Virus record (IMG/VR): IMGVR_UViG_3300036799_000147
Span: 1 to 39,470 of that record
Length of the DNA: 39,470 nucleotides
From: a virus
Strand: one strand, 5' to 3'
Shown: positions 1-33,189 of the stretch, one piece after another
Layout: the number at the start of each line of letters is the position of its first letter
How positions within the stretch are numbered: the first letter of the stretch is position 1
Position numbers and translations under genes: made by a program
The notes under the pieces: generated by a model
Database searches by the model: none
What the model was told of the DNA's origin: nothing
The model's input: only the letters and a program-made list of their open reading frames with translations

Positions 1-30
1 AGCGCTGACGTCACGGGGGGGAAGAGGGGG
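1..30. repeat. Terminal direct repeat, left copy (circle junction)
   Basis: These 30 bases recur exactly at 39441-39470. A replication gene and its stop codon read through the join without a break, so the repeat is best explained as assembly overlap of a circular or circularly permuted genome, not as a short physical terminal repeat. The unique length is 39,440 bp. Confidence 0.93.
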
Positions 31-564
31 GAACTCCGGTCCGGTACGGTCAGGTCCGGTACGGTCAGGTCCGGTAGGGTGCTGACTGTCATTTTTGTCA
101 TATGACCGGTCATCGCCGGTCAGCGCTGACGTCATCACTTCGTCATGCTGACTATCAGCACCATTTGGTGACCGGAGACGCTGACGTCGACGTGCCTGGG
201 CCTCGCGGTTGGCGGCCTTGCGTAGCTCACGCTGGTCGTTGAGCTTGCCCGCGTAATCGGGCCAGTCGTGGAGCACATACCCACTCGCCGAGCGCTCCAG
301 GAACCCCGGTTTCCCCTCACCACCACACTCCAGCAGCGCCCGCACGAAACGTGCGGCGTCCTTGACCGGCCAACCCGCGGCGTCGGCCAGGTCCTCGGGC
401 GTGACCTGGCCGATCAGTCCCTGTGGGTTGGCGTTATCTAGCCCCCACCACCACAACTCGTCCAGGTGCCCCAGCAGTTTGTGACGATCGCACTTAAGCA
501 CAGCCGCCACCCGCAGCGTCTTACGGTGATGACTGAGCGACTGGTGCAGCTGGATGTAGGCCAT
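1..564 (-). CDS. Phage replication initiator / replisome organiser-like protein (continues across the circle junction)
   Basis: The reading frame opens with ATG at 564 and runs off the left edge. On the circle it continues through 39440 and stops at TGA 39431-39433, giving about 190 residues. It begins MAYIQLHQSL and has a tryptophan-rich helical stretch (LDELWWWGLDNA), then LHDWPDYAGKL. This arrangement is typical of the N-terminal winged-helix part of small phage replisome organisers. The C-terminal third is low complexity (PDRTG repeats) because the DNA there is built of short repeats that look like an origin. The next gene starts in the stop codon (TGATG). No helicase or ATPase motif is visible, so initiator or loader is inferred from family resemblance and location. 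Confidence 0.75.
   Translation of the reverse strand, partial: MAYIQLHQSLSHHRKTLRVAAVLKCDRHKLLGHLDELWWWGLDNANPQGLIGQVTPEDLADAAGWPVKDAARFVRALLECGGEGKPGFLERSASGYVLHDWPDYAGKLNDQRELRKAANREAQARRRQRLRSPNGADSQHDEVMTSALTGDDRSYDKNDSQHPTGPDRTGPDRTGPEFPPLPPRDVSA
36..152. other. Candidate replication origin inside the initiator gene
   Basis: The stretch holds two full 15-bp tandem copies of CCGGTACGGTCAGGT (41-70) plus partial copies. It also has an AT-rich patch (91-103), the perfect palindrome TGACCGGTCA (103-112), and AGCGCTGACGTCA at 122-134, which also occurs at 1-13. The tetramer GTCA occurs at 88, 97, 109, 119, 131 and 142, about one helical turn apart. Repeats lying inside an initiator gene resemble the lambda O gene origin. 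Origin function is inferred. Confidence 0.55.
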
Positions 565-569
565 GCTCT

Positions 570-848
570 CTACTTCCGCTTCGCGCGCACGCCCTGCACC
601 GTGTAGTCCGGCAACCGCACCCAGCGATTCAATCCGAGCAAGCGATAGCCGTCGCCTGTGGCTGCCCATAAACCGACGGCCACGAGGTCGGCGACCGTGT
701 CCGCCAGCTCCGCCTCAGTCTCACCCAGGCCCTCAGTTACCTCCGCCAATGTGAAGTCCAGATCGCGCCGCGGCGTCTTCTCTGCTCGCTCCGAGAGATA
801 GCCGGCCGACATCAAATACAGGCCAAGCGCCGACGCACCTGACTTCAA
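570..848 (-). CDS. Small winged-helix-like early protein
   Basis: A 92-residue protein just upstream of the replication initiator (5 bp gap), with a helical pattern (ASALGLYLMSAGYLSERA, then an acidic helix ETEAELADTVADLVAVGLW and GYRLLG) that resembles the N-terminal winged helix of phage replication proteins. The usable start is TTG at 848. A strong ribosome site (AGGAGGGG, about 878-885) overlaps the stop codon of the upstream gene, but the frame has no ATG, GTG or TTG at normal spacing from it, so the start is uncertain. A role in replication is inferred from position. Confidence 0.6.
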   Translation of the reverse strand: MKSGASALGLYLMSAGYLSERAEKTPRRDLDFTLAEVTEGLGETEAELADTVADLVAVGLWAATGDGYRLLGLNRWVRLPDYTVQGVRAKRK

Positions 849-1456: not shown

Positions 1457-1680
1457 CAGCTGGGCTCCCTTCCAGATTGCCCCGCTGTCTCCAAAACCCA
1501 CGCTGCAGCAAACGACGGCGTGAAGTACGACCACAAGTGGTGACGTACCGCGAGCGCCATCCAGCCCAGCGAGAAGTCAATGCGAGAAGTCTTGCCACCA
1601 TCGCGCCGGCTGATCGCTGCGTAGTCGTCCTCGAGGCGCGACCGACCGAAGTCGTTCAGGTCCTCAATCGAGAGCTTCAT
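1456..1680 (-). CDS. Hypothetical early protein
   Basis: A 74-residue protein (MKLSIEDLNDFGRSRLEDDY...), hydrophilic at the N-terminus, with a Trp-rich, moderately hydrophobic centre (SLGWMALAVRHHLWSYF). It overlaps the methyltransferase stop by ATGA (1677-1680) and the next start by one base. I do not recognise a family. Confidence 0.65.
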   Translation of the reverse strand: MKLSIEDLNDFGRSRLEDDYAAISRRDGGKTSRIDFSLGWMALAVRHHLWSYFTPSFAAAWVLETAGQSGREPS

Positions 1681-2474
1681 GGGCGGTCTTTCGTGGCATT
1701 TAGCTGTTGAACGGCCGAACTGCTAACTGCCACGTTTCGGCGACGTCTTGCCCGCTCGCGGCAGGCATCTGAGCAGTATTTCGCATCGCTCCGCTGGGCA
1801 GGGAAGTGACGGTTACAGCGCGGGGCCTGGCATGGGACAACCAGAGGCACTCCAACCGCTGGACAGCGCGGGCCCGGGTGCGCGCAGATCCAGTAACTCC
1901 ATGCCTTGCGAATATGGAGCTGGCGGCGCCAGCGAGGATCAGTGCCCGTCGGCCGGCGCATCTTGGGCACCATCTCGCACACTGTCCATCCAGCGGCGCG
2001 CGCCGCGACCACCAGGTCCACCGCCTGCAGCTGCTGCACGCTCTGGTGGACCATGTCGGCCACCTTGGCCAGCAGCATGCCGTCGCCAACCAGCACCTGA
2101 CGTACGACCTCCAGAAAGCCAGCGTACAGATGGGTGATGTTGTGGAAGCCACGCAGCGCGACATCCGCCGTTCCGTACGCCGCCGACCACGTGCCTTTGG
2201 TGAAGGCACGCTCACCACCATCGGTCTGATGTGGCGGATCCCAGACCACGAGTTGGAAGCTCGACGGCGCGAACAGCCGCGGCAGATCTCGCCATTCACC
2301 GACCACATCGACCCCAGGCATTGGGCGCTGGTCGAATCGTGTTGTCGGCTGGTACGGACAACCACGCCAGATCGCGCCGCGACCCCAGGTTGCATCCAGC
2401 GTGATCGGCTCGTGGTAGTAGTGCAGCCCGATCAGCTGGTTCAGGACCTCCGCATCGCTGCTCACACGACTCAT
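1677..2474 (-). CDS. DNA amino-methyltransferase with C-terminal zinc finger
   Basis: The 265-residue product has the two motifs of phage DNA methyltransferases: a SAM-site loop LDATWGRGAIW (residues 26-36) and a catalytic-type VVWDPPH (76-82). The form DPPH replaces the usual DPPY/NPPY. The C-terminus carries a Cys4 finger (C215, C220, C234, C238) with YCSDACRERARRRR, probably for DNA contact. The start ATG 2474 overlaps the RecT-like stop (ATGA), which excludes the longer frame to 2738. Likely roles are masking phage DNA from host restriction or marking it. The target base (N6-adenine or N4-cytosine) cannot be told. Confidence 0.82.
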   Translation of the reverse strand: MSRVSSDAEVLNQLIGLHYYHEPITLDATWGRGAIWRGCPYQPTTRFDQRPMPGVDVVGEWRDLPRLFAPSSFQLVVWDPPHQTDGGERAFTKGTWSAAYGTADVALRGFHNITHLYAGFLEVVRQVLVGDGMLLAKVADMVHQSVQQLQAVDLVVAARAAGWTVCEMVPKMRRPTGTDPRWRRQLHIRKAWSYWICAHPGPRCPAVGVPLVVPCQAPRCNRHFPAQRSDAKYCSDACRERARRRRNVAVSSSAVQQLNATKDRP

Positions 2475-3475
2475 GGGGTGACGATGCCGGCCTCCGCATC
2501 GCGCACTCGCCGCTCGAGGTCCTCGACCGCAGCAAGGGCGTCCACGTCGCTCACCGACTGACTGAGGGGCTCGTACTCGACGCCCAGGTCGCGCGCCTTC
2601 CCCGTCAGCAGTCCCCAGCGCTCCCGCAATTGCGCGCGGTTGAGCTGCGCCACCGTCTCGTCTCGCGCCTGGGCCGCAGCGTGCGCCTGCTCCACAATCG
2701 CCGCGGCATGGGGGTCCTGCACGACTTCGCCGGTGCACGTGTCGACCGCGTAGACGCTCTCGCCGAGCATACGGGTGTATTCATCGGCTCGGGCCGCTGT
2801 TTGGCGTTCTGACGGACGTTCGACCACGACCGGGCCCGTCGGTTGCTCGCCCTCGTCTACATCCGCGAGCCCGCCCGTCTCGGATGGGAACGCACGCCGC
2901 AAGGCCTGGCGTTCCGCGGCAATCGCCAGCATGCTGCGCGGGCGCGCGCGCCACATCCGGCCGCGCGGTCCGACGCCTGGATAGCACTCATCCATGAACG
3001 CGACGCCCTCGAATGCGCCAACGCGCGCGCCATTGTTGGCAAAGACCGTGACGACGCATTTCGCCGGCACCGGCTTGGTCGCGCCACGCTCGTCGACGCG
3101 CATGTCGTAGATGTCAGAAAAGCGTGGCTCACCCGCGCCGACGTACCGGCCAGTCTTGACCGCGATGGTGCGCAGTCCGTCTATCCCAATATGGAGCGAG
3201 GGACTGCTGCTCTCGCCCCCAAAACGCTCGTAATACACCTGTTTGAGGAGCGCGTCGAGCCCACGCCGACGCACCCCGGCGATCAACGTGACGAGCTCCT
3301 CCATCGACGAGCACTCTTTGAACGTGGTTGACGCCAACAACACCAGTTCCGTTTCGTCGACGCCCGCCAGCTCCAGCGCACGGTTGAGATCCATGCTCGA
3401 GGTGGCCGGCGGCAGGTCGCCAAACTGGCGGATGCCCGAGGCCTGCGGTCGGCGTTGTTCAAGAGCTCGGGTCAT
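2471..3475 (-). CDS. RecT/Bet-family single-strand annealing protein
   Basis: A 334-residue protein with the core layout of phage Bet/RecT annealases: GLDALLKQVYYERFGG, then LHIGIDGLRTIAVKTGRYVG, a beta-rich middle with CVVTVFANNG, and RPRSMLAIAAERQALRRAFP. The N-terminal 30 residues and the Ala/Glu-rich C-terminus are variable, as in the family. These proteins anneal complementary strands during phage recombination, normally with a 5'-3' exonuclease partner. No RecE/lambda-Exo homologue is evident here, although the VRR-NUC protein at 6160-6534 is a possible nuclease. The start ATG 3475 overlaps the upstream stop by ATGA. Confidence 0.85.
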   Translation of the reverse strand: MTRALEQRRPQASGIRQFGDLPPATSSMDLNRALELAGVDETELVLLASTTFKECSSMEELVTLIAGVRRRGLDALLKQVYYERFGGESSSPSLHIGIDGLRTIAVKTGRYVGAGEPRFSDIYDMRVDERGATKPVPAKCVVTVFANNGARVGAFEGVAFMDECYPGVGPRGRMWRARPRSMLAIAAERQALRRAFPSETGGLADVDEGEQPTGPVVVERPSERQTAARADEYTRMLGESVYAVDTCTGEVVQDPHAAAIVEQAHAAAQARDETVAQLNRAQLRERWGLLTGKARDLGVEYEPLSQSVSDVDALAAVEDLERRVRDAEAGIVTP

Positions 3476-3714
3476 AGCGGATAGGTCCTCCCGTCGAAGG
3501 CGATGGCGGCGTTGGCCCACATCCTGGCCTCCTGCAGCTTGCGGATCGCCAGCGTCCGCTCCGCCGACTGCGGGCAGTTGTCCAGCACGGCGTCGTACAT
3601 GGAGGTCGCGGCGAGGCTGATCGTTTCGTGGTGCCTGGCCTGCTCCGCGTTTGGAGCGTGGTAGACCATCGGATTCAACATCTCGGGCGCCGGCTGTTTG
3701 ACGTTGTCACTCAT
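3472..3714 (-). CDS. Candidate Acb2/Tad1-type hairpin protein (cyclic-nucleotide sponge)
   Basis: An 80-residue protein with the pattern of a family I know from many phages: NPMVYHAPN near the N-terminus, two long helices, an LDNCPQSAERTLAIRKLQEA segment and the ending MWANAAIA (65-72). Recent annotation calls this the Acb2/Tad1 hairpin domain. Studied members bind cyclic di- and trinucleotides or gcADPR and so blunt CBASS or Thoeris defence, but many members are untested. ATG 3714 is preceded by GAGGAG, a clear ribosome site, and the stop overlaps the recT start. The anti-defence function is an inference. Confidence 0.68.
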   Translation of the reverse strand: MSDNVKQPAPEMLNPMVYHAPNAEQARHHETISLAATSMYDAVLDNCPQSAERTLAIRKLQEARMWANAAIAFDGRTYPL

Positions 3715-3843: not shown

Positions 3844-4380
3844 CTACGTGGAAGCATCTCGCCCTCTAGCGATCTGCTCCAAAAACTCGTACATGACACG
3901 GTTGTGCCGCGCATCCGCCAGCGCGTGGTGCTCACCTTTGCCCTGTTCTGGCAGCGCGGGGTTGCCGAGCTCGTCAGCCCACTGCTTCAGGTCGCGGCAG
4001 TACATGGGGAAACCCTTGGGCAGGTTCACCATGGCGCCGAACAACTGGCACAGCACCACCCAGTCGTAGTCGGCGTAAAAGCCCCAAAACTCGGGCTTTC
4101 CGTGCTGCTCAGGGTTGCAGAACTCAAGGATGTCGTCACGGATGCCCGCCCGGAACTTGGCTGGGCACGACGGGAAATCGTCCCAGGAAACGTGCGGGCC
4201 GTGAGCCCGATGCACGAGCTGAGGTAGGACATGCTCGCGAACCCAGTCGTTGGCCAGGTACATGTCCGGGTCCAGGTTCTCGCGGTACAACTCGCGGCCG
4301 TCCTCCGCCACAATGCCGATGCTCAGCAGCTCAATGCGGCGGCCGTCTTCGGCGAATTCTGTATCCAACCAGTAGCGCAT
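3844..4380 (-). CDS. RNase AS-like DEDDh 3'-5' exoribonuclease
   Basis: This 178-residue protein has the full DEDDh set: WLDTEF (D6, E8), FYADYDWVVL (D104/D106) and EHHALADARHN (H151/152, D156). The surrounding residues (DGRRIELLSIGIV, NDWVREHVLP, MVNLPKGFP) match the polyadenylate-specific exoribonuclease AS family (Rv2179c type). It would trim RNA 3' ends in the cytoplasm. In a phage it could turn over host or early phage transcripts. ATG 4380 overlaps the upstream TGA by one base, so the five-codon longer start at 4395 is not needed. Confidence 0.88.
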   Translation of the reverse strand: MRYWLDTEFAEDGRRIELLSIGIVAEDGRELYRENLDPDMYLANDWVREHVLPQLVHRAHGPHVSWDDFPSCPAKFRAGIRDDILEFCNPEQHGKPEFWGFYADYDWVVLCQLFGAMVNLPKGFPMYCRDLKQWADELGNPALPEQGKGEHHALADARHNRVMYEFLEQIARGRDAST

Positions 4381-4622
4381 CAGGGAAGCTCCCACGCCGC
4401 GTCGTCGGTGCGGTCGGTCTCATAGCAGCGGCGATCACCGGTGAACCACTGCCAGCGCTGATAGTCGAACTGCGGAAGACCTTTGCCGATGTGCTTCTGG
4501 TGGCCGTCAGGCTCGAGCATGCAGCGCGTGTGCAGACCATTCGTCTCGGCAGGCGGGGTGGGCCGCTCCGGGTACCAGCCCATGCTGATAGCGACCGGAC
4601 AGCGAGTTTTCTCCTCGCTCAT
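4380..4622 (-). CDS. Hypothetical early protein
   Basis: The product is an 80-residue Trp/Pro-rich hydrophilic protein (MSEEKTRCPVAISMGWYPERP..., FDYQRWQWFTGD) with three cysteines and several histidines. I do not recognise it. It overlaps the Rpf-like gene by ATGA (4619-4622) and the RNase AS start by one base, so it is translated as part of the chain. Confidence 0.65.
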   Translation of the reverse strand: MSEEKTRCPVAISMGWYPERPTPPAETNGLHTRCMLEPDGHQKHIGKGLPQFDYQRWQWFTGDRRCYETDRTDDAAWELP

Positions 4623-5047
4623 CGGAGGCCCAATCTCCGGCTACACGCCGGCCAGGCTTGCCAGCCCTGCACCGCGAGCCCGCGCTGGGCGACAGCGATC
4701 TGGGCGCCGCGCGTGGCGAGGTCCGGCCGCGAGGCATAGGCCAGCCCGCCGTGGCGCCGCCAGAAGACCAGGTCTTCCTGGAGCCCGCCAAAGTACGAAT
4801 TGCCCGAGTTCAGGTGCCAGCGACCGCTGCTCTCACAGTGCGCCAGATCGTCCCATATGCCGTAGGCCGGCTCGGGGGTCGGAACTGCCGCGACTTCCCG
4901 CACTTCCGGCTGTTCCGCTTTTTCTGGATAAAGCTCATCTGAGGCGCCTGATCCAGCCTCGTCCGCGGCGTGGATGCCCAGCGCGGCGCCGCCGACCGCA
5001 ACGACCACGGCTCCGAACAGCGCGCCGGCCACAAACCAGCGCGCCAT
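4619..5047 (-). CDS. Resuscitation-promoting factor (Rpf)-like transglycosylase with N-terminal membrane segment
   Basis: In this 142-residue protein, residues 4-27 form a signal/anchor segment (WFVAGALFGAVVVAVGG) and residues 30-60 an acidic Pro-rich linker. Residues 62-142 form an Rpf domain: WDDLAHCESSG with the expected catalytic glutamate E72, N-x-GN-x-YFGGLQ, YASRPDLATRGAQIAVAQR and QGWQAWPACSRRLGL. C71 and C135 would give the family's disulfide. Rpf domains cleave peptidoglycan as lysozyme-like muralytic enzymes outside the membrane. It lies among early genes, not with the lysis genes, which suggests a role in host envelope or growth state during infection or lysogeny. ATG 5047 overlaps the upstream stop (TGATG). 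Confidence 0.86.
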   Translation of the reverse strand: MARWFVAGALFGAVVVAVGGAALGIHAADEAGSGASDELYPEKAEQPEVREVAAVPTPEPAYGIWDDLAHCESSGRWHLNSGNSYFGGLQEDLVFWRRHGGLAYASRPDLATRGAQIAVAQRGLAVQGWQAWPACSRRLGLR

Positions 5048-5283
5048 CAGGACCTCGCCCTGGTGATCTGCCGCAGCACCGTGGCAGCGCCGAAATCAAG
5101 GCAGATATCGCAAGCATGCTCGTCGTCGGGGCAGTCGCAGACGGCGTACTGCACGTGAGCACACTCCCCGTTGGCGCCCTTGTCGTCGTCGCACGGGAGC
5201 AAGTCGGCCGCGGCCTTGTGCTGGCGACAGACGTGGCAGAACACCTCGGGCTTGCCGTCGAACATGACGTGGTAGAGCGGCAT
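5047..5283 (-). CDS. Cysteine-rich zinc-binding early protein
   Basis: The 78-residue product has two Cys clusters: FCHVCRQHKA near residue 15, and further on CAHVQYAVCDCPDDEHACDICLDFG. The spacing suggests two structural zinc sites, the second very acidic. No known family is recognised. ATG 5283 overlaps the upstream stop by one base and the stop overlaps the Rpf-like start. Confidence 0.65.
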   Translation of the reverse strand: MPLYHVMFDGKPEVFCHVCRQHKAAADLLPCDDDKGANGECAHVQYAVCDCPDDEHACDICLDFGAATVLRQITRARS

Positions 5284-5609
5284 CAGACGGCTCGCTCCGC
5301 GCCTTCCTCGCGCAGAATCCGCAGCCCTTCTGGAGAGCGCAGGACATACTTCGTCACCCGCTGCAGCCTCCGATGTGCCTCGGGCGTGCCACGGATGTCG
5401 ACGACCTCGCCGATCGGCTCCTGCTCCTCGGCGGACAGCCGCCGTCGGATGTGAAAGGCATAGCCGGTCCATTCCTCCCATTCGCCAAGGTCGGCGTCAC
5501 CAACACCCTCGAGGGCCTCGAGCGCGAACCGTCGCAGTGACTGCTCACCGACTGGCCAGCCGGGCAGAGGAGCCGCGCTCGCGTGCCACACGGGCCCGCC
5601 CAGTTCCAT
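5283..5609 (-). CDS. Hypothetical early protein
   Basis: A 108-residue, charged, mostly helical protein (EALEGVGDADLGEWEEWTGYAF, LSAEEQEPIGEVVDIRG, RLQRVTKYVLRSPEGLRIL). No motif is recognised. It starts at ATG 5609, just past the stop of a 42-residue gene, and its stop overlaps the next ATG (TGATG). Confidence 0.65.
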   Translation of the reverse strand: MELGGPVWHASAAPLPGWPVGEQSLRRFALEALEGVGDADLGEWEEWTGYAFHIRRRLSAEEQEPIGEVVDIRGTPEAHRRLQRVTKYVLRSPEGLRILREEGAERAV

Positions 5610-7435: not shown

Positions 7436-7669
7436 TTAGGCCTGGCGGCGGACCGGGAGACGTCGCAAAACAGGTTCAGGGCGGTGTTGTTCCGCGATTC
7501 GCTTCTGTTCGGCAATCCAGTCCTGGGTGGCCGAGAAGGGAATCAACCTGGCGGTGCCAATCTTGTAAGACACCAACTCGCCGCGACGGATCAGTTTCTT
7601 GACCGTCGAGGGCGACACGCCCAGGACGTGCGCGGCTTCCTCGATCCGAATGTTTCGATCATCGGTCAT
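7436..7669 (-). CDS. Excisionase-like MerR-type helix-turn-helix protein
   Basis: A 77-residue protein with the standard excisionase/MerR winged-helix pattern: IRIEEAAHVLGVSPSTVKKL, then IRRGELVSYKIGTARLIPFS, then a short basic tail. In temperate phages such proteins direct the integrase to excise or repress transcription. It overlaps the RHH gene by ATGA (7666-7669) as second gene of the early operon, so it would be made on induction, when excision is needed. Confidence 0.8.
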   Translation of the reverse strand: MTDDRNIRIEEAAHVLGVSPSTVKKLIRRGELVSYKIGTARLIPFSATQDWIAEQKRIAEQHRPEPVLRRLPVRRQA

Positions 7670-8037: not shown

Positions 8038-8619
8038 ATGCCCCTAAAACGCGGTCGTAAGCTGGCCACGCCACCAGCGCCCTCCACGTCGAACGGACAC
8101 CAGGCCCGCGCTGAAGCCGCTGGCCCCAGCGGCACAGGGGAGCCGCCCGTGGCAGAAGAAGAAGAACTCGTCGCTGACGCCGACCTCGAGCGTTTCGCAC
8201 TAACGCTCAAACGGTTGCGACTGCTTGCCGGCCTCACGCGTCCGGCTGCTGCCCAGGAAGTTGGCTGCACGCCGCGCCAGCTAGAGCATTGGGAAAAAGC
8301 CGGCGCCAGTCCGCACATCCGGTACATCCTGCGACTCGCACAAGTGTTCAAAGTCACCACGGACGAGCTCCTCGGCTACGAACCCAATCCCGAGGCTGTC
8401 GACGACGCCACGCGTGATGCTATCACAGCATTAGAACGCATGTTCGAAACCATGGGGCTGCCGCGCAATGTGACGATCAACGTCCAGCCGCGCGGGATCG
8501 GTCAGCAATTCAATCAGTACCTGCCTGGCAGCTACCGGCGCAGCACGCCGACCCGAGCCCACCCAGACGCCGACATCAGTACCGAGCAGACACGCCCCGT
8601 CGAGGTGAAGGCCCCATGA
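8038..8619 (+). CDS. Xre-type helix-turn-helix phage repressor (CI-like)
   Basis: A 193-residue protein. Residues 1-48 are a basic then acidic flexible arm. Residues 52-113 form a Cro/C1-type HTH: LKRLRLLAGLTRPAAAQEVG, CTPRQLEHWEKAGASP and ILRLAQVFKVTTDELLGYEP. The C-terminal 80 residues lack the S24 peptidase domain, so it would not be inactivated by self-cleavage like lambda CI. It is divergent from the early operon with two-fold symmetric DNA between them. A possible -10 TACACT is at 8016-8021. The likely role is maintenance of lysogeny. Confidence 0.82.
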   Translation: MPLKRGRKLATPPAPSTSNGHQARAEAAGPSGTGEPPVAEEEELVADADLERFALTLKRLRLLAGLTRPAAAQEVGCTPRQLEHWEKAGASPHIRYILRLAQVFKVTTDELLGYEPNPEAVDDATRDAITALERMFETMGLPRNVTINVQPRGIGQQFNQYLPGSYRRSTPTRAHPDADISTEQTRPVEVKAP

Positions 8620-8829: not shown

Positions 8830-10044
8830 TCAGACGAGGGTGCTGACCTTGCCGAGCGAGGTTTGGACACCATCTTGGACACCATTAGCCGAAAGGATGG
8901 TGTCCAAACGGGCCGCGGCCTGCCGGCGCGCCGAGCCGTACTGGTGGCCGTAGATATCCGCGGTGATAGCCAGAGTCGAGTGGCCCAGGATCTTCGAGAC
9001 CTCCCAGAGCTCGACTCCTTGCGCGAGTAGCAGCGATGCGGCGCTATGTCGCAGGTCGTGTAAGCGAACGTCCTGGAAGCCGGCCCGCCGGCGTATCGCG
9101 TCCCAGATGCGATACAGGGTTGTGGTCTCGAGGCCTCCCCCGAATGCGTTGCAGAACACCAGGTCGCGGTGCACCCACAGGTTCGCCGCGCGGCGACGTT
9201 CTTCGATCTGACGCTCGCGGTGCGCTTCGAGCGATCGCGCAATGACCACGGGAAGCGCCACGGTCCGCACTGACCCATCCGTTTTGACCCTGGCGAGTGT
9301 GAGCTGGCGCTTCCCGTTGGTGTCCTGCGACTCCGCCAGCTGGTGAACCACGCGTAGCTCGCGCTGGGCAAGATCAACGTCACACCAGCGCAGACCGAGC
9401 AGCTCACCACGGCGCAACCCGACCAGGGCCAGATTGATAAGCGCCTCGAGACGCTCACCACGGGCGACCTCGAGCAGGTGGCGAGCCTCAGCCTCGTCCA
9501 GGACGCGGATCTGGAACGGCACCGACTGCTGCCCGCGCGTGCGGCCCTTGCGCTTGGCAACCTGTGCCGGGTTTCGAGCAATCAACTCCAGTTCGAGGGC
9601 GTCCGCGAGTGCGACGCGAAGCGTGGCGTGGATGTAGCCTACGGTGCGCTCGGCGAGACCTTTGGCGCGCAGGGAGCGGAGCAGCTGCTGCACATCGCGC
9701 GGCTGAACCTGGCCCAGGCGGACGCGGCTGATGGCATGCGGAATGATGTGGTTCTCGATGTTGACGCCGTAACCGCGCAAGGTCGTCGAGCGGCGCTCCT
9801 GGTCGGTGTGAGCCTCCGCGATCCACTGGCGCAGGTATTGGCCGAGGGTGAGCCTGTCGCTGGGGATGGTTAGGCCGCGGTCGCGGTCGACGCTCAGGCC
9901 ACGCAGCGTCTCTCGGACCTCCTGAGCAGTATCGCCGCGCACGAGTTTGCGTTTGCCGCCACCGACCCGCAGTGAGGCAACCCATTTGCCGCGGCTTGCG
10001 TCGAATCGCGGCTCGCTGCCTTCGCCGTTAGCGCGTCGAGCCAT
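8830..10044 (-). CDS. int: Tyrosine-family phage integrase
   Basis: In this 404-residue protein the N-terminus is an AP2-like arm-binding domain (RFDASRGKWVASLRVGGGKRK), then a SAM-like core-binding domain (about 65-165) and the catalytic domain. Visible active-site residues are the Arg in GLRRGELLGL (about 211), the beta-hairpin Lys in VKTDGSVRTV (254), HDLRHSAA (H329, R332), LGHSTLA (H355) and the nucleophile in TADIYGH (Y365). The set is complete, so the enzyme should be active. The start is ATG 10044, overlapping the RHH gene by 17 bases. The 3' end faces attP. Confidence 0.95.
   Translation of the reverse strand: MARRANGEGSEPRFDASRGKWVASLRVGGGKRKLVRGDTAQEVRETLRGLSVDRDRGLTIPSDRLTLGQYLRQWIAEAHTDQERRSTTLRGYGVNIENHIIPHAISRVRLGQVQPRDVQQLLRSLRAKGLAERTVGYIHATLRVALADALELELIARNPAQVAKRKGRTRGQQSVPFQIRVLDEAEARHLLEVARGERLEALINLALVGLRRGELLGLRWCDVDLAQRELRVVHQLAESQDTNGKRQLTLARVKTDGSVRTVALPVVIARSLEAHRERQIEERRRAANLWVHRDLVFCNAFGGGLETTTLYRIWDAIRRRAGFQDVRLHDLRHSAASLLLAQGVELWEVSKILGHSTLAITADIYGHQYGSARRQAAARLDTILSANGVQDGVQTSLGKVSTLV
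8863..8887. repeat. Right arm repeat of attP (within the int 3' end)
   Basis: Exact copy of 8631-8655, two TTGGACACCAT units at 8863-8873 and 8875-8885. An inverted unit, ATGGTGTCCAA, follows at 8897-8907. All three units lie inside the integrase coding sequence and encode its NGVQDGVQ tail, so the site and the protein C-terminus share the same bases. Confidence 0.65.
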
Positions 10045-10249
10045 CGGAGTCTGACTCGCGCTCGTGCTCGGTGACGTAGCGACGGAGCGCATAGATGACC
10101 AGTGAAGAGAAGGTGCGGTCCTCGTCCTGGGCGACACCCAGGGCTCGTTTGCGCAGACTGGCGGGGAAGCGAATCGTCACCGCGACGGTGTCCTCGGGTT
10201 GCTCGTCTGCGTCTGCTCGGCGCTTGGGCATACCTGTTGTTGCTGACAT
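10028..10249 (-). CDS. Ribbon-helix-helix regulator upstream of integrase
   Basis: A 73-residue protein with TVAVTIRFPASLRKRALGVA, DEDRTFSSLVIYALRRYV, a typical Arc/CopG RHH with a strand then two helices, and charged ends. It is co-transcribed with int (overlapping stop and start). ATG 10249 follows the -10-like TACAAT by about nine bases, so the message would be nearly leaderless. A likely role is regulation of int and of the divergent operon. Confidence 0.78.
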   Translation of the reverse strand: MSATTGMPKRRADADEQPEDTVAVTIRFPASLRKRALGVAQDEDRTFSSLVIYALRRYVTEHERESDSDGSTR

Positions 10250-12264: not shown

Positions 12265-12510
12265 TTAGCGCGCTCTGCTGAGCGCCGTGATCCACGTCGT
12301 GACGACGCTCGACAGGATGGCGATCGCGGCCTGATCCTCGATGTTGGTCGAGTTGCCGATCAGGATCCAGAAACACCCGAGCGCGAAGAACACGGTCAAC
12401 CAGAAACCGGCGAACAGCCGCGCCAGCGTCAGCGTGATCTTGAGACCGCGGTACTCGAGGATGACCTCATGGTCGGGGTCTTTCTTCTGAGGCTCCTTTG
12501 GCCACGTCAT
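12265..12510 (-). CDS. Small membrane protein of the lysis module
   Basis: The 81-residue product has a charged N-terminus (MTWPKEPQKKDPDHEV), then two hydrophobic helices (TLARLFAGFWLTVFFALGCF, AAIAILSSVVTTWITAL) and a short basic end. It overlaps the upstream membrane gene by ATGA. Two helices with a short basic tail fit a holin or antiholin candidate. It is the last gene of the leftward late operon. Confidence 0.62.
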   Translation of the reverse strand: MTWPKEPQKKDPDHEVILEYRGLKITLTLARLFAGFWLTVFFALGCFWILIGNSTNIEDQAAIAILSSVVTTWITALSRAR

Positions 12511-12728
12511 AACACCCGCAGACCACTGATGACGTACAGGAACATCACCACCACCACGATGCCGCCGACGGCCAGCAGGATGCTCACGATGGGGCCTTCC
12601 CAGCGGGTGCCCAGCGCGGCTCGCTTGCGCTGGTAGCCGATCGACAACGTCACCTCCAGTCTGAAACTGGAGTGTGGATCGTCAGACTCAGAGGTATCCG
12701 GCTCGGAACCAGATCCAGACAGCGACAC
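12507..12728 (-). CDS. Small membrane protein with structured start region (holin candidate)
   Basis: The longest form starts at GTG 12728 (73 aa) with an acidic Ser-rich head, then IGYQRKRAALG and one membrane helix, IVSILLAVGGIVVVVMFLYV. A better ribosome site, CTGGAGGTG, precedes alternative starts GTG 12653 and TTG 12647, giving about 46-48 residues. That site lies in the 3' arm of a perfect hairpin (12654-12672). The choice of start and control by the hairpin recall dual-start holin genes. Confidence 0.58.
   Translation of the reverse strand: MSLSGSGSEPDTSESDDPHSSFRLEVTLSIGYQRKRAALGTRWEGPIVSILLAVGGIVVVVMFLYVISGLRVL
12654..12672 (-). promoter_or_regulatory. Hairpin covering a ribosome binding site
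   Basis: CTCCAGT and ACTGGAG pair perfectly around a five-base loop. In the leftward mRNA the 3' arm plus the next bases form ACTGGAGGTG, the only strong ribosome site for the short forms of the 12507 membrane protein. Closed hairpin would block it. Inferred from sequence only. Confidence 0.5.
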
Positions 12729-12959: not shown

Positions 12960-13622
12960 TCACGGCTTGTAGATGCTCTCGTCGCAGGCGCCAGGCACAC
13001 CGGGGATGCTGGCGCTGTCGGTGTTCTGCCAAAAGGTGATCTCGCTCCAGCCGGCGGGTACCTCAGGGGTGCTCGACTGGTAGGCCGCCAGCCACAGCTG
13101 GTTGCCGAAGGCGGCTGCAACCGACACGTCGTACAGACCGTGCGGCTGCAGAAACCACGGCCCGGAGTACAGCATCGGCATGATGCTGGTCCTGTCATGC
13201 ACCAGCGCTGCGAACGTGATCGCCCAGCTCGCCAGGTCGCCGCTGCCAGCTTCGAGATCGAGCACGAGCAAATCCCCAGGCTGATAGGGCACGTTGGCCA
13301 GGAACCAGTCGGCCTCAGCCTGCGGCGTGTGCGAGTCGGGTCGGGCGAAGTGGTACGTGCCGCGCACCAGGCCGTTGTCGTGGATGCGTTGCCAGTCCCG
13401 CTCGAAGTACGGATTCAGGTAGTTCGTGCTCTCGGTTGCCTTGACGAAGGCGAACTTGCAGCCTGAGTTCGCCACGGCGGCCCAATCGACGTTTGGCTGA
13501 TACGACGAGACGTCGGGCCCACGGTCGCCAGGACTGAGCGGCAGGATCGACGGTGGTGTCGGCGCAGGCGACGGCTGCGCTTCGGCCTGCTGCGGGTACA
13601 GCAGCGTGGGACTAAGCGTCAT
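12960..13622 (-). CDS. GH25 lysozyme endolysin
   Basis: A 220-residue protein with all GH25 landmarks: GPDVSSYQPNVDW, FAFVKATESTNYLNPYF, RGTYHFARP, LLVLDLEAG (carrying the catalytic Asp/Glu pair), QLWLAAYQSS and ITFWQNTDSASIPGV. The fold cleaves MurNAc-GlcNAc bonds of peptidoglycan. The first 30 residues are Pro-rich, with no convincing signal peptide, so it would need a holin to reach the wall. No wall-binding domain is fused, but the adjacent LGFP-like protein may supply one. ATG 13622 overlaps the upstream gene by 11 bases. Confidence 0.92.
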   Translation of the reverse strand: MTLSPTLLYPQQAEAQPSPAPTPPSILPLSPGDRGPDVSSYQPNVDWAAVANSGCKFAFVKATESTNYLNPYFERDWQRIHDNGLVRGTYHFARPDSHTPQAEADWFLANVPYQPGDLLVLDLEAGSGDLASWAITFAALVHDRTSIMPMLYSGPWFLQPHGLYDVSVAAAFGNQLWLAAYQSSTPEVPAGWSEITFWQNTDSASIPGVPGACDESIYKP

Positions 13623-25991: not shown

Positions 25992-27793
25992 CAGGCGGCC
26001 ACCGGCATGCCCACGGTCTGGGGTGCCATAAACGGTTGCGGCGGCGTCGGCGACATGGCCGGCGCGGTAAAGCCGCCGGGTACGCCCCACGGAGCTCCCG
26101 TATTGCTTCCGACGACCTGACCCGTGGCTGGCATGCCGGCACCGACGCCCGGATAGGCGCTGCCGTACGCGGTCCAGGGGTTGGGCGAGCTCGCTGGGCC
26201 ACCGCCCGAGATATTGATGTTGATGGCGCCCTGCGCCCCCTGAGCACCCATCGACGGCTGTGCCGAGCGCACCGGTGCCAGCAGCGCTGGATTAGCTTGC
26301 GAGGCTGCCAGACGTCCAGCGGGAGTGTCTTGAAAGCCGGCCGTGTTCATGGCAGCTGTGCTGGCCTGCGGGTTGAACGGGGTAGTCCCTGTCAGCGGCG
26401 CGGAGACCGCGCCACCGGCGCCAGCAGCTGTCGTCGGCCCACCCGTGACCTTCTGACCGGTCGCCGCCGACCACTTATCCAGCAGCAGCGACAGCGTGGC
26501 GATCGCCTTCTGGGTGACCGGATCCGCGGCATTGGATGTCGGATCCGCGGCAGCCACCATGCGCGCCGCGGCGTCGAGGGTGGCCTGACCACCGCTCAGC
26601 TCAGCCGTCCAGCCAGCCAGGCCCTGCACCAGGTTGGCGCCCAGGTCCGACGGGATCCCACCGGCCGCGCCAAAGTTCTTATTGCCCAGCGCGCTGCCCA
26701 TCAGGTTGCTGAGCGCACCGGTGGCCTGTGCTGCTCGAGTCGACAGCAGCTGCGCGCCGGCCTGCGCACCTTGAGTGGCCTGGCTTCGAGCGTTGGTCAG
26801 CAAGTTGTTGGCAGCCGTAATGGCGTTGGTCTGCGTCTGCGAGTCGGCCGTGGCCTGTGCCGCGGCAGCTGTCTGGGCTTCGACTGCCTGGTTGTGGCGT
26901 GCAGCTTCGACATTGCTGGCCGCGGTCGAAGCTGCGTTCTGCTGGTTGACGCTGAGCGTGCCCTGCGCGATCTGATTGGCCTGCTGCTGAGTCAGCCGCT
27001 CAGTGTCGATGCGCTGCTGGTTCTGGGCATCGGCGATGTTCAGGTGCTCGCGGTTGGCGACGTTCATCGCCTCGTCCTGCGCGAGTTTGATGGCTGCCTG
27101 ATCCGAGCCGGCCTGCTCGATCTTGATGCGCGCCTCGTTGATCGCCTGATTGCTGGCCGCGACCTGGGCGTTGGTCTTGGCGTTGACCAGCGCGATATCG
27201 TTCGCGGTCTGCGAGTTCTTGTTGTTGTCGCTGGCGATCTTCAGCTGGGCGTCGATCTGCTGCTGGGTCAGACCCTGGCTCTTCAGGGTCGCGTCCATCG
27301 TCGCGATCTCCTGATCGGTCATGTTCAGACCGCGCGAATCGACGTTCTTCTGTCGATTGGCTGCAGTGTCCTGCAGGTCCTTCAGGTCCTGATTGGCCTT
27401 GGCCGTGGCTGCCTGCGACGCCGCCACAGCGGCCGCAGTGGTGCTCTGGTCCTTATCGTTGGGCTTGACACCCTGCTCGACACCGGTGACGTTCCAGTCC
27501 AGCTGGTCGAGGCCGACGTTGGCAGCGTTAACGCCTTGACCCTGCGGCCGCATGGTGACCGTGCGGACTTCGCCGTTGGGCCCAAGCAGCGTCAGCTGCC
27601 AGTCGACCGAAGCACGCCCGGGTGCAGCTGTTGGCGTGCCCTGCGACGTCTTACCCGGCTGGACCAGCGAGTTGGGATCAACCGTGACGCCGTCCTTGTC
27701 GGGCTTGGGCGTCGGCACGCCGCTGATCGACCACTGCGTCGGGTCGAGCTTCAGCGCACGTAAGAACTCGTCTGGATCAGAGAAACGTGCCAT
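25991..27793 (-). CDS. Long helical Ala/Gln-rich internal virion (ejection) protein
   Basis: In this 600-residue protein, residues 1-110 are folded and Trp-containing (WSISGVPTPKP, VDWQLTLLGPNGEVRTV). Residues 110-400 are a very long, nearly uninterrupted Ala/Gln/Asn-rich helical region (QQIDAQLKIASDNNKNSQTA, NREHLNIADAQNQQRIDTE), and the C-terminus is Gly/Pro-rich. Long helical, poorly conserved proteins like this form the internal core or ejectosome of podoviruses. The frame starts in the stop of the 1,798-aa gene (TAATG, 27793). Confidence 0.65.
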   Translation of the reverse strand: MARFSDPDEFLRALKLDPTQWSISGVPTPKPDKDGVTVDPNSLVQPGKTSQGTPTAAPGRASVDWQLTLLGPNGEVRTVTMRPQGQGVNAANVGLDQLDWNVTGVEQGVKPNDKDQSTTAAAVAASQAATAKANQDLKDLQDTAANRQKNVDSRGLNMTDQEIATMDATLKSQGLTQQQIDAQLKIASDNNKNSQTANDIALVNAKTNAQVAASNQAINEARIKIEQAGSDQAAIKLAQDEAMNVANREHLNIADAQNQQRIDTERLTQQQANQIAQGTLSVNQQNAASTAASNVEAARHNQAVEAQTAAAAQATADSQTQTNAITAANNLLTNARSQATQGAQAGAQLLSTRAAQATGALSNLMGSALGNKNFGAAGGIPSDLGANLVQGLAGWTAELSGGQATLDAAARMVAAADPTSNAADPVTQKAIATLSLLLDKWSAATGQKVTGGPTTAAGAGGAVSAPLTGTTPFNPQASTAAMNTAGFQDTPAGRLAASQANPALLAPVRSAQPSMGAQGAQGAININISGGGPASSPNPWTAYGSAYPGVGAGMPATGQVVGSNTGAPWGVPGGFTAPAMSPTPPQPFMAPQTVGMPVAA

Positions 27794-30700
27794 TAGCGGC
27801 TCCCGGCGCCCACTGTACGCCCGACTACTGTCTTACCCTCGGCAACGCGCGCATTGAGCTCACCCGCAGGTGTCATGCGCTGCCACAGCGTGGCCATGTC
27901 CGGCTCGGCACTGCGCAGCTTGCTGGCCAGCATCTTGGCCTTCTGATTGTCGGTCTGGTTCTGGTACGCGGCCGAGTTGACTAGCTGACCGACGGCCTTG
28001 TCGATGGCCTGCGCGCGCTGATAGGTGAGCTCGCGCTGCTCGCTCTCATTCAGCGGGATGGTGCTACCGCGCAGGCTGACCTGCGTTGGCGCCTTGGTCG
28101 GACCAGGGATCTGATACCCCAGCCGCTGTAGCCGATTCGTCTCGGCATCCAGGTCGCTGACCGGCCGCGTCTGCATGCCCAGCAGTTCGCCAAAGCCAGC
28201 CGAGCGACGCTCTTGCGGCTCAGGCGTGGTCATGGATGGCTGAGACGGCAGCATGCCCTCGAGGCCAGGGATACGCGCCTGCTCGCGCTGCAGGAACTGC
28301 TGCCAGCCCTGATTGCTCGGATCACGCAACACCGGGTCAAACGCCGCGGTGGCCTGCGTCAACGCCGCACCGGTGGGCAGGTAGCGGTCGATGTAGCTAC
28401 CAGCCAGCGAGCCGGTCGCGCCGGCCAGATTGCCCTCGCCCACCTGGTTGAGCGTCTTGATCAGGTCCGCGGCGTAGAACTGGTTGGCCATCGTCTTGCC
28501 GATGGCGTTGTACATACTCTTGACGTAGTCGGGGTTGGGCTTCGCGCCCTCCTTGGTCAGTGCCTCATACATGGCTGCCGGCGCCGCGATTGGCAGCGCC
28601 CAGGCACCCCAGTTGGAGTAATCGAACCACTGCCCGCCGATGCGGATGCCACTGGGATGCTCCTTATCGTCAGGCCCGCGGATGTTGCCGTTGAGCACGT
28701 TGGCGATAACCGCTGTGCTGACCACGCTCTGCGTCAGGAACTCGCCCGTAGCTTCTTGCATGGCGTGCTCGTCACCCGCGCGCCAGGCTTTCGCGAACTT
28801 GATCGCTGCCAGGCTCTCGCCGACGACGGGCATGCGCTTGCCGCCGATGTTGAAGATGCGTCCTGGTACTGCGGCAAACGGCACGCCCGCGTCGAGCAAC
28901 AACCCGGCCGCCTGATGTTTGAGATCCGGCGCAGCCAGCAGCTTGTTCTTGAGCTCGCTCAGCCCCTGGCCTGGCCCTTTGCCCTCGCCGAACACCGACA
29001 GGTTGGCCATCTTCTGACCCGCGTCGTCCAGGCGTTTCTGATTAGCGCCCAGTAGCGCGCTGAGCGGCTGTCCGGGATTCTCGCGAATCAACCGCTGGCC
29101 CTCGGAGCCGGCGCCCATCGCCCAGCCCAGTGTGCGGAAAAAGTCGTCGGTAGCCCCCAGCGCGCGCAGTGCAAACCACTTGGCTGGCGTGGTGCCCTGC
29201 GCTTCGGTCATCTGCGTACGGCCGCTGCTGAGCGTCTTCGCGAAGTTGGTAAACGCGTCTGGCAGCGCCTGACCGGCCGCGCGGAGTCCAGCAATAGCTT
29301 CATCACCGTTACCCCCAGCAGCCGACACCAGCGGCGTCCTGGCGAGCTCGACCAGCTGGCTGATGATGTTGGTGGTGTGCGTCTTGATGCCCGAGAGCAG
29401 GTTGTTCTTGGTGAACGCACTGACGTTCTGCGCCAGCGTCTGCGGCGGATTGACCAGCGGCATGCCCGGCAGCGGCAGGGGATTGGCTGGCGGTCGCAGG
29501 CCACGCAGGTCGTTGTAGTTCGGACCAAGGCCGTGCTGCGCCAGCCGCAGGGCTGTACCGGGAGCGGTCGCGCCCAACACACCCGCTGCTACATCACGCG
29601 CGAAACGATCGCCAGTATGCGACTTATCTTCGTCGGACATGGTCGCTTCCTGGCTGGCCACGCCCGCTGCAGCGCCGCCCAGCTGCAATGCCAGACGCGG
29701 GTCAGCCGCCCCGCCCTGCCGGTTGGCGATGACGTTGCGAGCCTTGTCGACGCCGGTGTCGAACAGCACGTGCACGTCGTGACTGATCGGACTGCCCCGC
29801 GCGTCCGTCATCGGAACGCGCTGCCCACCGGGGTAACTGATGCCATCAAAACCAGCCGCCTTGAGCGTGTCATTAGCGAACTGCTTGTTGGTGTTGGCCA
29901 GCGCGTCATACAGGTCTTGACCAGTCGCCGTCGGACCGCTGGTGTAGCGCTCGACGTCTCGAGCCACCATCTGGTCGCGGTAGTCGTTGCTCGAATTGAG
30001 CACGTCCAGCACGGCGTTTTTGGTGTCCTGGTCGAGGGGTGCCTCGATGTTCAGCATGTGCAGGTTGGGCGTGTCCTGCAGACTGCGAGTGGTTTCATCG
30101 AAGACCTTGGGCACGTTAGTGATGTCGGGCAGCTCAACTGCCCGAACGTTCGGCCCGGAGCGCGGGTTGTACTCAGCAATCTGCTGCTGCAGATCTTGTT
30201 GCCGCTGGTTGAGCATGGAACGGCGACGGTCCGACAACCCCGGCTGCGCAAGTTGCGAAGCCACGTCCTGCAAGTCGGCCTGCAGGGCACTGAAGTCATC
30301 GGGACGTGCCTGCGCGTAGCCCGGCGATACGACACTGCCAGGTTGACGCTTGACTGAACTGCTGAGCCACGACGGACCCACTTGTTCACCCCCCTCAGCC
30401 ACTACACCGCCGGCCACTTCCGGGCTGGTGGTGGTGTAGTAGCCGGGCCCGAACAATGCTTCGGGGTCGCCAGCGCTCGCGGCGGGCTGCTCAAAATCGG
30501 CGCTGGTGCCGTGGTACACGCGCGTGACCTGCTGCTTGACCGCGGTGGCGATCTCTCTGAGCTTGTCCGTGTCGAGCGTGCCGGCTTCGTTCTTGACGAA
30601 GTCGCCGATCGGACCTTTGGCCAGGTCAGCCATGATGTCTTCGACACTCGCACGCGCCCAGCGACCAGCACCGCTGACCGCTGCTCGAGCAGCGTCTCTG

Positions 30701-33189
30701 ACCTGTGGGATGGAGCTACCCAGCGCCGCGGCCCAGCCGAATTGCGTCGCGTCATGCGTCGCCTGGAACGCCGCGCGGTCGGCCGCACGCTGTGCGGCAC
30801 TGCCTGCGAAACGTTCCTCGGCACCGATCGGGATAGCAAAGTTGGCTGCCTGGCCCAGGATGTCCGCCAGCGGCGTCGCGCCCAGCACCGGCAGGTTGAC
30901 CGTGACCGACGCGGGGATGATGCCGGCCGATTTCAGGAACGCTGACAGTGGGCCTGAAACGTCTGGCCCCTGGCTGCCAGGCGGCGGGGTCGCTGCACTG
31001 ATGCCAGCCCGAATCTCCTCAGGTAGTTGCCGGCCCGTGATCGCTTCGGCCGTGCTCACGCCCGGCATGAACGGCGACTGCTCGGTCTGCTGGCGCTGGG
31101 CTTCGGTGCTGGCGGCCTGGATGTCTTGACCGAAGTGGCCCAGGTTCTCGGGCGCCTGCTGGATGTCCTGCAGGTTCTGCCCCAGCGTGCCGCCAAGCGG
31201 GCTGGGCGCCTGGCCGGCGATGTTCGCGGCGCTTTGCGTCAGCGGGCTCTGGATGACATTGTTCGCGGCAGTCTGCAGACCGCTGAGATCCAGCGGCTGA
31301 ACGTTGGCGCGCGCCTGCTCGATCTGGGCGTTGACCTGATCGCGACGCTGCTGGCTCTGCTGCAGGTAGTCGTCGAGTTGCTTCTGCGCCGCGTCGCGGG
31401 CGGTCTGTAACTGCTTGAGTGCCTGATCGCCCTGGTCCTGCAGGCTCTGCAGCTGCGTCCGTCCAGCGTTGAGCACGTCCTGGGCCTGGCTGGCCACCTG
31501 GCCACCCTGTGCGACTGTTCTGTTGAGTGCGCTCTGAGCAGCACTGCCCGCACCTGCCAGCGCCTGCTGGCCGGCGCTCTGCAAGCCTCCAGCCGCGTCG
31601 ATTGCGGCGTTGGTCGTGCCGCCCAGACGATTCTGGATGCCCTGCACGATGGCCAGGTACTCCGGCTCGGCCGCGGTGAAGTAGCCGCCGCTCTTCAGGC
31701 CATGGACGAATGTCGGCAAGTCAATCGCGCCGACGGCGTTCTTATAGCTGCGCTGCAGCAGGTCGATCCAGGCGTTCACCGCGTCCAGTGGGCTGTCGTA
31801 CGCCGCGAATGTGGCGTTCTGGGTCGTGCCGCCGTATTCGCCCTCATGCGTCTGCATCGTCGTGCCCGGCTGACCGGCAACCGCCTTGACGCCGAACAGT
31901 TCATTGCCCGCGGCCTTGCCGTAGTTACTCTCGCTGGCGGCCATGGCCGTCACCCAGGACGGATCAATGCCCAGTTTGGTCGCCGCGTACGCCGCGTATG
32001 GGGCGAAGGATTTGGCGAAGGCCTCGGGGCTGCTCGAGTCGATCGCGCCGCCGGTGGCCGCGTTGACGGCCGTCTGAGCGCTCTGCACCGGGCCCTGGCC
32101 ACCGTTGGTGGGGACGCTCGGGTTGTCGGCGAACAACGCACCCTGCAGTTGGCCCATGCGGCCCTGCATCTGGCTGGGCGTCATCCACTCGCTGCCACCC
32201 CTGAGATCCAGCCCACTACGGCCGACATGAAAGGCGCCACTGGTCGGGTCGTACCCGTCGGCAAAAAAGTAATGGCCTGGAGTCGAAATCGTGACGGGGT
32301 TGCCTGTTTGCGCTTCCTTTGCGATCGCGTCCCAGTCAGCCCCAACGATGTGCGTCGCTACGCCGAGCTTGTCCATCAGCGCTTTCTCAGAGGTGATGCC
32401 GGCCATACCGTTCTGGCTGGTCCAGCCCACCTGCGCTGCCAGGTCAGTCGCTTCTCTGAGCGTCGGGTTGCGGCCGAACATCTGCGCGAACCTGACAGCG
32501 GCTGCCGGTCCACACGCGGCGTACGCCTCGTCCGCGGTGAGCTGTGGGTCGCCGAACTGACTGGTGCTGTCGGCCGTGCCCTGATTGCCGGTGGTGCTGA
32601 CCGCCCGATCCAGTGCTCGAGCGCCCTGGTCGACCGCGGCTCCAACGGTCTGGCCGGCGCCGGAGACGGCACCGCCGACCGCCTGTCCTGCGCTGCTGAC
32701 ACCGTTGAGCACGTTGCTGCGGGCCTGCTGCTCCCACTGATCGAACTGCTCCAGCGGCGAGGGACCTGTGCCTCCCGAGACCCCCGAGTCGACAGCAGAC
32801 GCCGCTGGAGCGCTGGGCAGTGTGCCTGACGCTGTGGTCGTCTGCGGTTGAGATTGGGACTGCGACTGGGCAAGCGTCTGCGCGCGCTGCTGAGCTTCCC
32901 AGGCATTGAACTGGTCCAACGCGCTCTGCGCTTCGGGAGCAATCGCCTGCGCGACCGGCTGCGTCACCTGGGTAGTGGTCTCAGGCGTTGACTGGACAGC
33001 GGTGTTGACCGCCGTGCCGACGTTACTGGCTGTCTGGCCGACTGCCGTGGCCGCCGTGTTGACGGCCGTGGCTGCCGTATTGGCTGCAGCCAGCGCCCTG
33101 GCGCGCGCCTCTTTTTCCCAGTTGTCAAATTGGTCCAGCGCGTTCTGGGTCGCGTCGTCCGCCAGCAGGAAGCCGCCGGGTCCGGGCAT
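27793..33189 (-). CDS. 1,798-residue multi-enzyme ejection protein (C39-like, GH73, ADP-ribosyltransferase-like domains)
   Basis: By far the longest gene. Residues 17-160 carry three copies of an LDQF-x2-WE motif. Residues about 215-350 are C39-like peptidase: C226 in ACGPAAAVRFAQ, H306 in PGHYFFADGYD. Residues about 385-525 are a GH73 glucosaminidase: E420 in AASESNYGKA, then ELFGVKA and SGGYFTAAEPEYLA. Residues 555-690 are Gln-rich coiled coil. Residues about 887-1145 resemble ART-PolyVal ADP-ribosyltransferases (RVYHGTSADFE, FGPGYYTTTSPEVA, GFDGISYPGG). The remainder (KNNLLSGIKTHTTNIISQLV onward) resembles polyvalent virion proteins. Between portal and other internal proteins, it is likely injected with the DNA. 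Confidence 0.8.
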   Translation of the reverse strand: MPGPGGFLLADDATQNALDQFDNWEKEARARALAAANTAATAVNTAATAVGQTASNVGTAVNTAVQSTPETTTQVTQPVAQAIAPEAQSALDQFNAWEAQQRAQTLAQSQSQSQPQTTTASGTLPSAPAASAVDSGVSGGTGPSPLEQFDQWEQQARSNVLNGVSSAGQAVGGAVSGAGQTVGAAVDQGARALDRAVSTTGNQGTADSTSQFGDPQLTADEAYAACGPAAAVRFAQMFGRNPTLREATDLAAQVGWTSQNGMAGITSEKALMDKLGVATHIVGADWDAIAKEAQTGNPVTISTPGHYFFADGYDPTSGAFHVGRSGLDLRGGSEWMTPSQMQGRMGQLQGALFADNPSVPTNGGQGPVQSAQTAVNAATGGAIDSSSPEAFAKSFAPYAAYAATKLGIDPSWVTAMAASESNYGKAAGNELFGVKAVAGQPGTTMQTHEGEYGGTTQNATFAAYDSPLDAVNAWIDLLQRSYKNAVGAIDLPTFVHGLKSGGYFTAAEPEYLAIVQGIQNRLGGTTNAAIDAAGGLQSAGQQALAGAGSAAQSALNRTVAQGGQVASQAQDVLNAGRTQLQSLQDQGDQALKQLQTARDAAQKQLDDYLQQSQQRRDQVNAQIEQARANVQPLDLSGLQTAANNVIQSPLTQSAANIAGQAPSPLGGTLGQNLQDIQQAPENLGHFGQDIQAASTEAQRQQTEQSPFMPGVSTAEAITGRQLPEEIRAGISAATPPPGSQGPDVSGPLSAFLKSAGIIPASVTVNLPVLGATPLADILGQAANFAIPIGAEERFAGSAAQRAADRAAFQATHDATQFGWAAALGSSIPQVRDAARAAVSGAGRWARASVEDIMADLAKGPIGDFVKNEAGTLDTDKLREIATAVKQQVTRVYHGTSADFEQPAASAGDPEALFGPGYYTTTSPEVAGGVVAEGGEQVGPSWLSSSVKRQPGSVVSPGYAQARPDDFSALQADLQDVASQLAQPGLSDRRRSMLNQRQQDLQQQIAEYNPRSGPNVRAVELPDITNVPKVFDETTRSLQDTPNLHMLNIEAPLDQDTKNAVLDVLNSSNDYRDQMVARDVERYTSGPTATGQDLYDALANTNKQFANDTLKAAGFDGISYPGGQRVPMTDARGSPISHDVHVLFDTGVDKARNVIANRQGGAADPRLALQLGGAAAGVASQEATMSDEDKSHTGDRFARDVAAGVLGATAPGTALRLAQHGLGPNYNDLRGLRPPANPLPLPGMPLVNPPQTLAQNVSAFTKNNLLSGIKTHTTNIISQLVELARTPLVSAAGGNGDEAIAGLRAAGQALPDAFTNFAKTLSSGRTQMTEAQGTTPAKWFALRALGATDDFFRTLGWAMGAGSEGQRLIRENPGQPLSALLGANQKRLDDAGQKMANLSVFGEGKGPGQGLSELKNKLLAAPDLKHQAAGLLLDAGVPFAAVPGRIFNIGGKRMPVVGESLAAIKFAKAWRAGDEHAMQEATGEFLTQSVVSTAVIANVLNGNIRGPDDKEHPSGIRIGGQWFDYSNWGAWALPIAAPAAMYEALTKEGAKPNPDYVKSMYNAIGKTMANQFYAADLIKTLNQVGEGNLAGATGSLAGSYIDRYLPTGAALTQATAAFDPVLRDPSNQGWQQFLQREQARIPGLEGMLPSQPSMTTPEPQERRSAGFGELLGMQTRPVSDLDAETNRLQRLGYQIPGPTKAPTQVSLRGSTIPLNESEQRELTYQRAQAIDKAVGQLVNSAAYQNQTDNQKAKMLASKLRSAEPDMATLWQRMTPAGELNARVAEGKTVVGRTVGAGSR

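Follow-up and report, generated by a model that had tools for sequence, protein, structure and literature searches.

A stand-alone Rpf-type transglycosylase with a phage-type cleft in the putative early operon of a soil phage genome

The soil phage genome analysed here (the window, i.e. the whole virus record of 39,470 bases) contains, in what appears to be an early operon, a stand-alone gene for an Rpf-type transglycosylase. The cleft of this enzyme carries a coupled change of two residues that was unexpected and, among the copies examined, is found only in phages. The gene (rpf) is the following:

4619..5047, minus strand: Rpf-type transglycosylase of 142 aa, stand-alone ORF, with a hydrophobic export segment (residues 1-27), a Pro/Glu-rich linker (~30-62) and the Rpf domain (64-142)

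A preliminary description of this DNA had reported at this place an Rpf domain with intact Glu72 and disulfide cysteines; its coordinates proved exact, on the minus strand, and the domain itself was confirmed. The family PF06737 matched the protein with 89.2 bits (curated cut-off 27, E 2.7e-25), the sole Rpf match in the window. The domain is ~54% identical to that of Mycobacterium tuberculosis RpfB over 79 residues aligned with zero gaps, so that RpfB numbering equals that of the phage protein plus 220. Phage E72 corresponds to the catalytic Glu292 and C71 and C135 to the disulfide Cys291 and Cys355; all three are intact, and invariant across a 10-sequence phage alignment. The AlphaFold model of the domain, built with a 60-row alignment (pLDDT ~97; with 10 sequences the value was 60), lies at 0.6-0.8 Å rmsd to RpfB crystal structures (4emn). 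We infer that the protein is probably muralytic. A chance ORF at this location was ruled out by the relatives, the conservation and the dN/dS values.

We took the list of RpfB pocket and substrate residues from PMC11978375. W297, I337, W352, Q310, D312, Q347, A351, P353 and Y305 are the same in the phage protein, I288 and V309 are conservatively replaced by Leu, and the only non-conservative replacements are F311 to E91 and T315 to F95. In RpfB, T315 makes a hydrogen bond to triNAG and F311 forms part of the lining of the Glu292 pocket (PMC11978375). Of the 22 viral relatives collected first, 17 combined E, Q or M at position 311 with F at 315, while F at 311 was always paired with T at 315 (Y once), i.e. 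the two sites change together. Over the non-redundant viral rows the E/Q/M311 plus F315 pair appeared in 36 of 41, against 0 of 32 non-redundant host domains and 0 of 6 domains from isolated phages. In every host copy (89 domains from 80 host loci) position 311 is F or I and position 315 is T; the six isolate-phage domains are like the hosts in this respect. A degenerate DNA pattern encoding GG[L/V]Q[E/Q/M]DxxFW, chosen after the family had been seen, gave 30 matches in 2.9 million viral contigs, all of them translating to Rpf domains, and none in 396 Actinomycetota genomes, some of which may have no Rpf. When the cleft trait was mapped on a tree with sites 311 and 315 masked, it required 2 changes versus a mean of 26 for shuffled labels, on a tree of only 77 columns with many open forks.

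The replacements might adapt the cleft to a different form of glycan or stem (e.g. modified peptidoglycan) or let the enzyme escape host Rpf control. This idea draws on the coupled change and its distribution, on the exclusive hits of the DNA pattern, on the contacts of both residues in RpfB and on the differences in cleft charge among RpfB, RpfC and RpfE, suggested to matter for specificity (PMC4118796). However, the sites are one helical turn apart and the swap could be neutral and compensatory, and the tree is short and weakly resolved; as the explanation of the gene we consider it improbable. It is a matter of biochemistry and can hold alongside the other readings discussed below.

The genes around rpf that make up the putative early region are:

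1..669, minus strand: replication initiation protein, running on across the contig join into 39470..39279
1677..2738, minus strand: DNA methyltransferase
2471..3520, minus strand: RecT-type single-strand annealing protein
3844..4395, minus strand: RNase H-like / Rv2179c-like 3'-5' exoribonuclease
4380..4622, minus strand: 80-aa ORF overlapping the rpf stop codon (ATGA)
5047..5283, minus strand: 78-aa ORF rich in Cys, with its TGA overlapping the ATG of rpf (TGATG)
5283..5609, minus strand: 108-aa ORF, upstream, its end overlapping the 78-aa ORF; 77% identical in the related G003/L004
6160..6534, minus strand: early endonuclease-like protein
7436..7669, minus strand: excisionase-like HTH regulator, near the start of the early operon
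8038..8619, plus strand: XRE-type repressor, divergent from the early operon

Leftward from the repressor, the order is thus excisionase-like gene, endonuclease-like gene, small overlapping ORFs, rpf, exoribonuclease, RecT, methyltransferase and Rep. The TGATG overlap makes translational coupling of the 78-aa ORF and rpf likely; of 10 phage genes checked, 9 had the rpf start codon overlapping the stop of the preceding ORF. Within ~3.5 kb downstream of rpf we found RecT in 12 phages (the window counted), while 4 have a primase/helicase cluster there and 1 has only a replication initiator. In remote contigs the neighbours were DNA polymerase, primase, helicase, methyltransferase, Holliday-junction resolvase and ParB-like genes. 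The earlier assignment of the gene to the early and not the lytic module is therefore well supported by gene order and by the recurrence of this position in many relatives, and early expression of rpf seems probable.

The genes for integration, lysis and, probably, wall penetration are located elsewhere:

8830..10137, minus strand: tyrosine integrase
12265..12510, minus strand: holin-like TM ORF of 81 aa, adjoining the lysis set
12507..12728, minus strand: holin-like one-TM ORF of 73 aa, adjoining the GH25 gene
12960..13622, minus strand: GH25 endolysin (lysis enzyme)
27793..33189, minus strand: structural-block protein of 1798 aa with C39 peptidase and glucosaminidase domains

The integrase and the repressor, both predicted, identify the phage as temperate. 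Expression of rpf from the prophage, helping the lysogen to grow or resuscitate, could therefore be imagined, given that Rpfs promote growth and revival in actinobacteria (reviewed in PMC10986025). Yet rpf lies in an operon facing away from the repressor and overlaps its neighbours tightly, so it should be silent in a lysogen. In addition, a sigma-70 promoter scan of the early region gave no separate promoter-like site for rpf, a weak test in a genome with 66% G+C. We regard this form of lysogenic conversion as very unlikely.

The hydrophobic N-terminus had been read as a membrane tether, which now looks doubtful. We inspected the N-terminal pattern across 21 phage proteins. In the window protein one Arg is followed by an uncharged run, then I-H-A and then acidic residues. 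A [small/aliphatic]-[H/R]-Ala motif at residue 22-27, a likely signal-peptidase site, ends the hydrophobic N-terminus in 13 of the 21 relatives, and in the remaining 8 the hydrophobic runs are only 12-16 residues long. Both features fit a cleavable signal peptide better than a permanent anchor, which would make the phage Rpf a secreted protein. Longer phage-type Rpf proteins were also seen in four contigs (L158, L161, L163 and L178). The portions inspected showed no clear signal peptide, and several of these proteins share an N-terminal stretch (WFDNGF..LH..IGSIMG in L158 and L161); they are possibly virion or lysin forms.

As the preliminary description had remarked, rpf is far from the holin and endolysin genes: 8 kb separate it, on the early side, from the GH25 gene and the two holin-like ORFs, with integrase and repressor in between. 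Capsid, tail and terminase genes are away from both rpf and the lysis set. The main rival to the reading that we prefer (see below) is nevertheless an auxiliary lysin, exported early, harmless while the membrane is energised and aiding GH25 after the holin collapses the membrane potential. A direct precedent is Tgl of the Kayvirus phages of Staphylococcus, a lytic transglycosylase that is secreted, is transcribed from an early promoter and was proposed to assist LysK (PMC7150955). Like Tgl, the window protein would be an exported lytic transglycosylase apart from the main endolysin, as judged here from early position and export segment. The Gly/Ala-rich hydrophobic N-terminus could also serve as a signal-arrest-release segment, and in the Streptomyces phages BRock and GiJojo an rpf-like gene is found ~1 kb upstream of the endolysin. 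However, the Tgl domain is only distantly related and its lysis role was assigned on experiments, and its gene lies few genes from lysK whereas ours is 8 kb from the lysis cassette. Moreover, the phages bearing the cleft signature keep rpf early, and the scan of its neighbours there revealed no recognisable lysis gene. An auxiliary lysin is, on this evidence, a possible explanation but on the unlikely side. A GH25 search of the 12 first relatives found none, so their endolysins differ or lie beyond the fragments.

An enzyme of the virion acting at entry is a further alternative, and help in DNA entry had been suggested before. Mycobacteriophage tape measure proteins often contain an Rpf domain, and their peptidoglycan-hydrolase motifs (Barnyard motif 1, TM4 mt3) are Rpf-related or muralytic and have been linked to non-growing hosts; the TM4 motif aids infection of stationary cells (PMC1796659). 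Those motifs are part of the virion, while the window protein is a separate 142-aa product with an export segment, putatively early. Since its gene is outside the structural block, and the wall-cleaving protein of 1798 aa encoded in that block is itself the probable entry enzyme for penetration of the wall by the virion, a role in entry has very little to recommend it and is, if anything, the least probable of the explanations considered.

The reading that we tentatively prefer, at a little short of an even chance, is that of an enzyme made early that cuts the wall of the living infected host and keeps it permissive for replication. In this scheme rpf would be transcribed from the repressor-flanked early operon of a temperate phage in an Rpf-bearing, actinobacterial host (the estimate includes this host assignment) and its product exported via the host Sec system. 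There it would cleave the glycan strands of the wall while the cell is still alive and the phage replicates, adding to or replacing the host Rpf activity, and wall and growth state would thereby stay permissive. The protein would then be neither an endolysin proper nor an entry enzyme. What leads us to it are the Rpf domain, the catalytic residues, the export segment, the early position, the purifying selection and the cleft change; export, muralytic activity, early expression, host and benefit to the phage are all presumed in it. Hosts usually carry several Rpfs, which counts against the need for another one, the cleft changes might make the enzyme less active or active in another way, early-operon genes can act late and the BRock and GiJojo genes are close to the endolysin. 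On the other hand, host rpf genes rise during infection by Rhodococcus phage WC1 (PMC10986025) and a 2025 conference poster described two phages that infect Rpf-deficient mycobacteria less well (PMC12908700), suggesting that host Rpfs matter to phages.

A role in the growth state of the host, the central proposal of the preliminary description, is plausible. Its observation was confirmed and its interpretation partly so: the early module is well supported, the tether is doubtful and the entry role unlikely. A bolder version, that the phage-specific Rpf class (E/Q/M311-F315) is a secreted early signal by which the infected cell keeps growing and dormant neighbours wake and become infectable, seems rather unlikely to us. 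Since expression of an early gene presupposes a host that is already synthesising protein, the cells woken would more plausibly be partly active ones, or neighbours to which the secreted enzyme spreads. Most actinobacteria in soil are believed to spend a large part of their time dormant or growing slowly, and a small, probably exported enzyme kept in the early operon of many temperate phages, with a cleft variant of its own, offers a single-gene handle on how phages cope with such hosts. The cleft pair, for its part, is a clean marker for finding such phage genes and allows the specificity of Rpf enzymes to be tested in a defined way.

Phage Rpf domains are already known, and isolated phages of Rhodococcus and Mycobacterium have been found to carry a stand-alone rpf gene that is not part of the lysis cassette; in the open-access literature searched we found no description of an early-operon phage Rpf class or of its function. 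With RpfB, RpfC and RpfE of M. tuberculosis the window protein has in common the fold, the catalytic Glu, the disulfide and most cleft residues, and its layout is the short signal-linker-domain one of RpfC and RpfE, without the G5/DUF348 domains present in RpfB and without LysM. Unlike them, it is phage-encoded in a putative early operon and has the F311 to E and T315 to F replacements. Isolated phages with a stand-alone Rpf are Rhodococcus Weasels2, NiceHouse, Shagrat and REQ1, Mycobacterium prophi79-1, and Streptomyces BRock and GiJojo. In Weasels2, NiceHouse, Shagrat, REQ1 and prophi79-1 the gene is near replication/nucleotide-metabolism genes or the terminase, away from annotated lysis genes. 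A signal-like start was present in the five proteins read (Weasels2, NiceHouse, prophi79-1, Shagrat and BRock). They differ from the window protein in the canonical 311/315 cleft of all six domains compared and, in Weasels2, NiceHouse, Shagrat and BRock, in C-terminal tails or LysM-like repeats.

The family alignment matched 42 viral loci (about 40 diverse contigs), roughly half of them close, and additional contigs with the cleft signature came from the DNA pattern search. In non-saturated pairs dN/dS of the Rpf domain was below ~0.3, indicating purifying selection. Of the first 12 kb of the window, only the rpf segment showed DNA similarity to all 8 full relatives. Compared with one relative (G001) it is 76% identical, while RecT, terminase and capsid reach 26-28%. 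Unusual constraint was set aside as the cause of this identity: host Rpf domains are ~60% identical too, so that part of it comes from the domain itself, and G001 and G003 have early patches 92-95% identical with different structural genes, pointing to exchange between phages for another part. The pattern fits a cassette exchanged among otherwise different phages, with part of the identity simply due to a conserved domain. In one relative (L006, 5986-7170) a radical SAM gene (phrog_9298) is inserted between rpf and recT. In L163 (5927-7613) queuine tRNA-ribosyltransferase-like and ParB-like genes are found a few kb downstream of the Rpf gene, hinting at a modified-base phage.

The window was classed as a linear contig. 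Bases 1-30 are identical to bases 39441-39470 and the Rep ORF crosses the join, so that this is very likely a complete genome of ~39.4 kb (~39,440 bp), circularly closed or permuted. With window positions 1-24000 as query no isolated phage was close at the nucleotide level, and no close prophage relative was found in the 396 Actinomycetota (genome contigs, host loci and capsid protein), where the capsid matched at only 27-29%. Positions 30-190, inside the end of the replication initiation gene, contain GGTCCGGTACGGTCA in tandem copies and GCTGACGTCA as a recurring palindrome, an arrangement reminiscent of the iterons of an origin located in the initiator gene itself. Finally, a 274 kb contig of 45% GC from a Saccharibacteria MAG (L081) carries a canonical Rpf domain. 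Saccharibacteria live on actinobacteria, and this copy could be genuine or a binning error.
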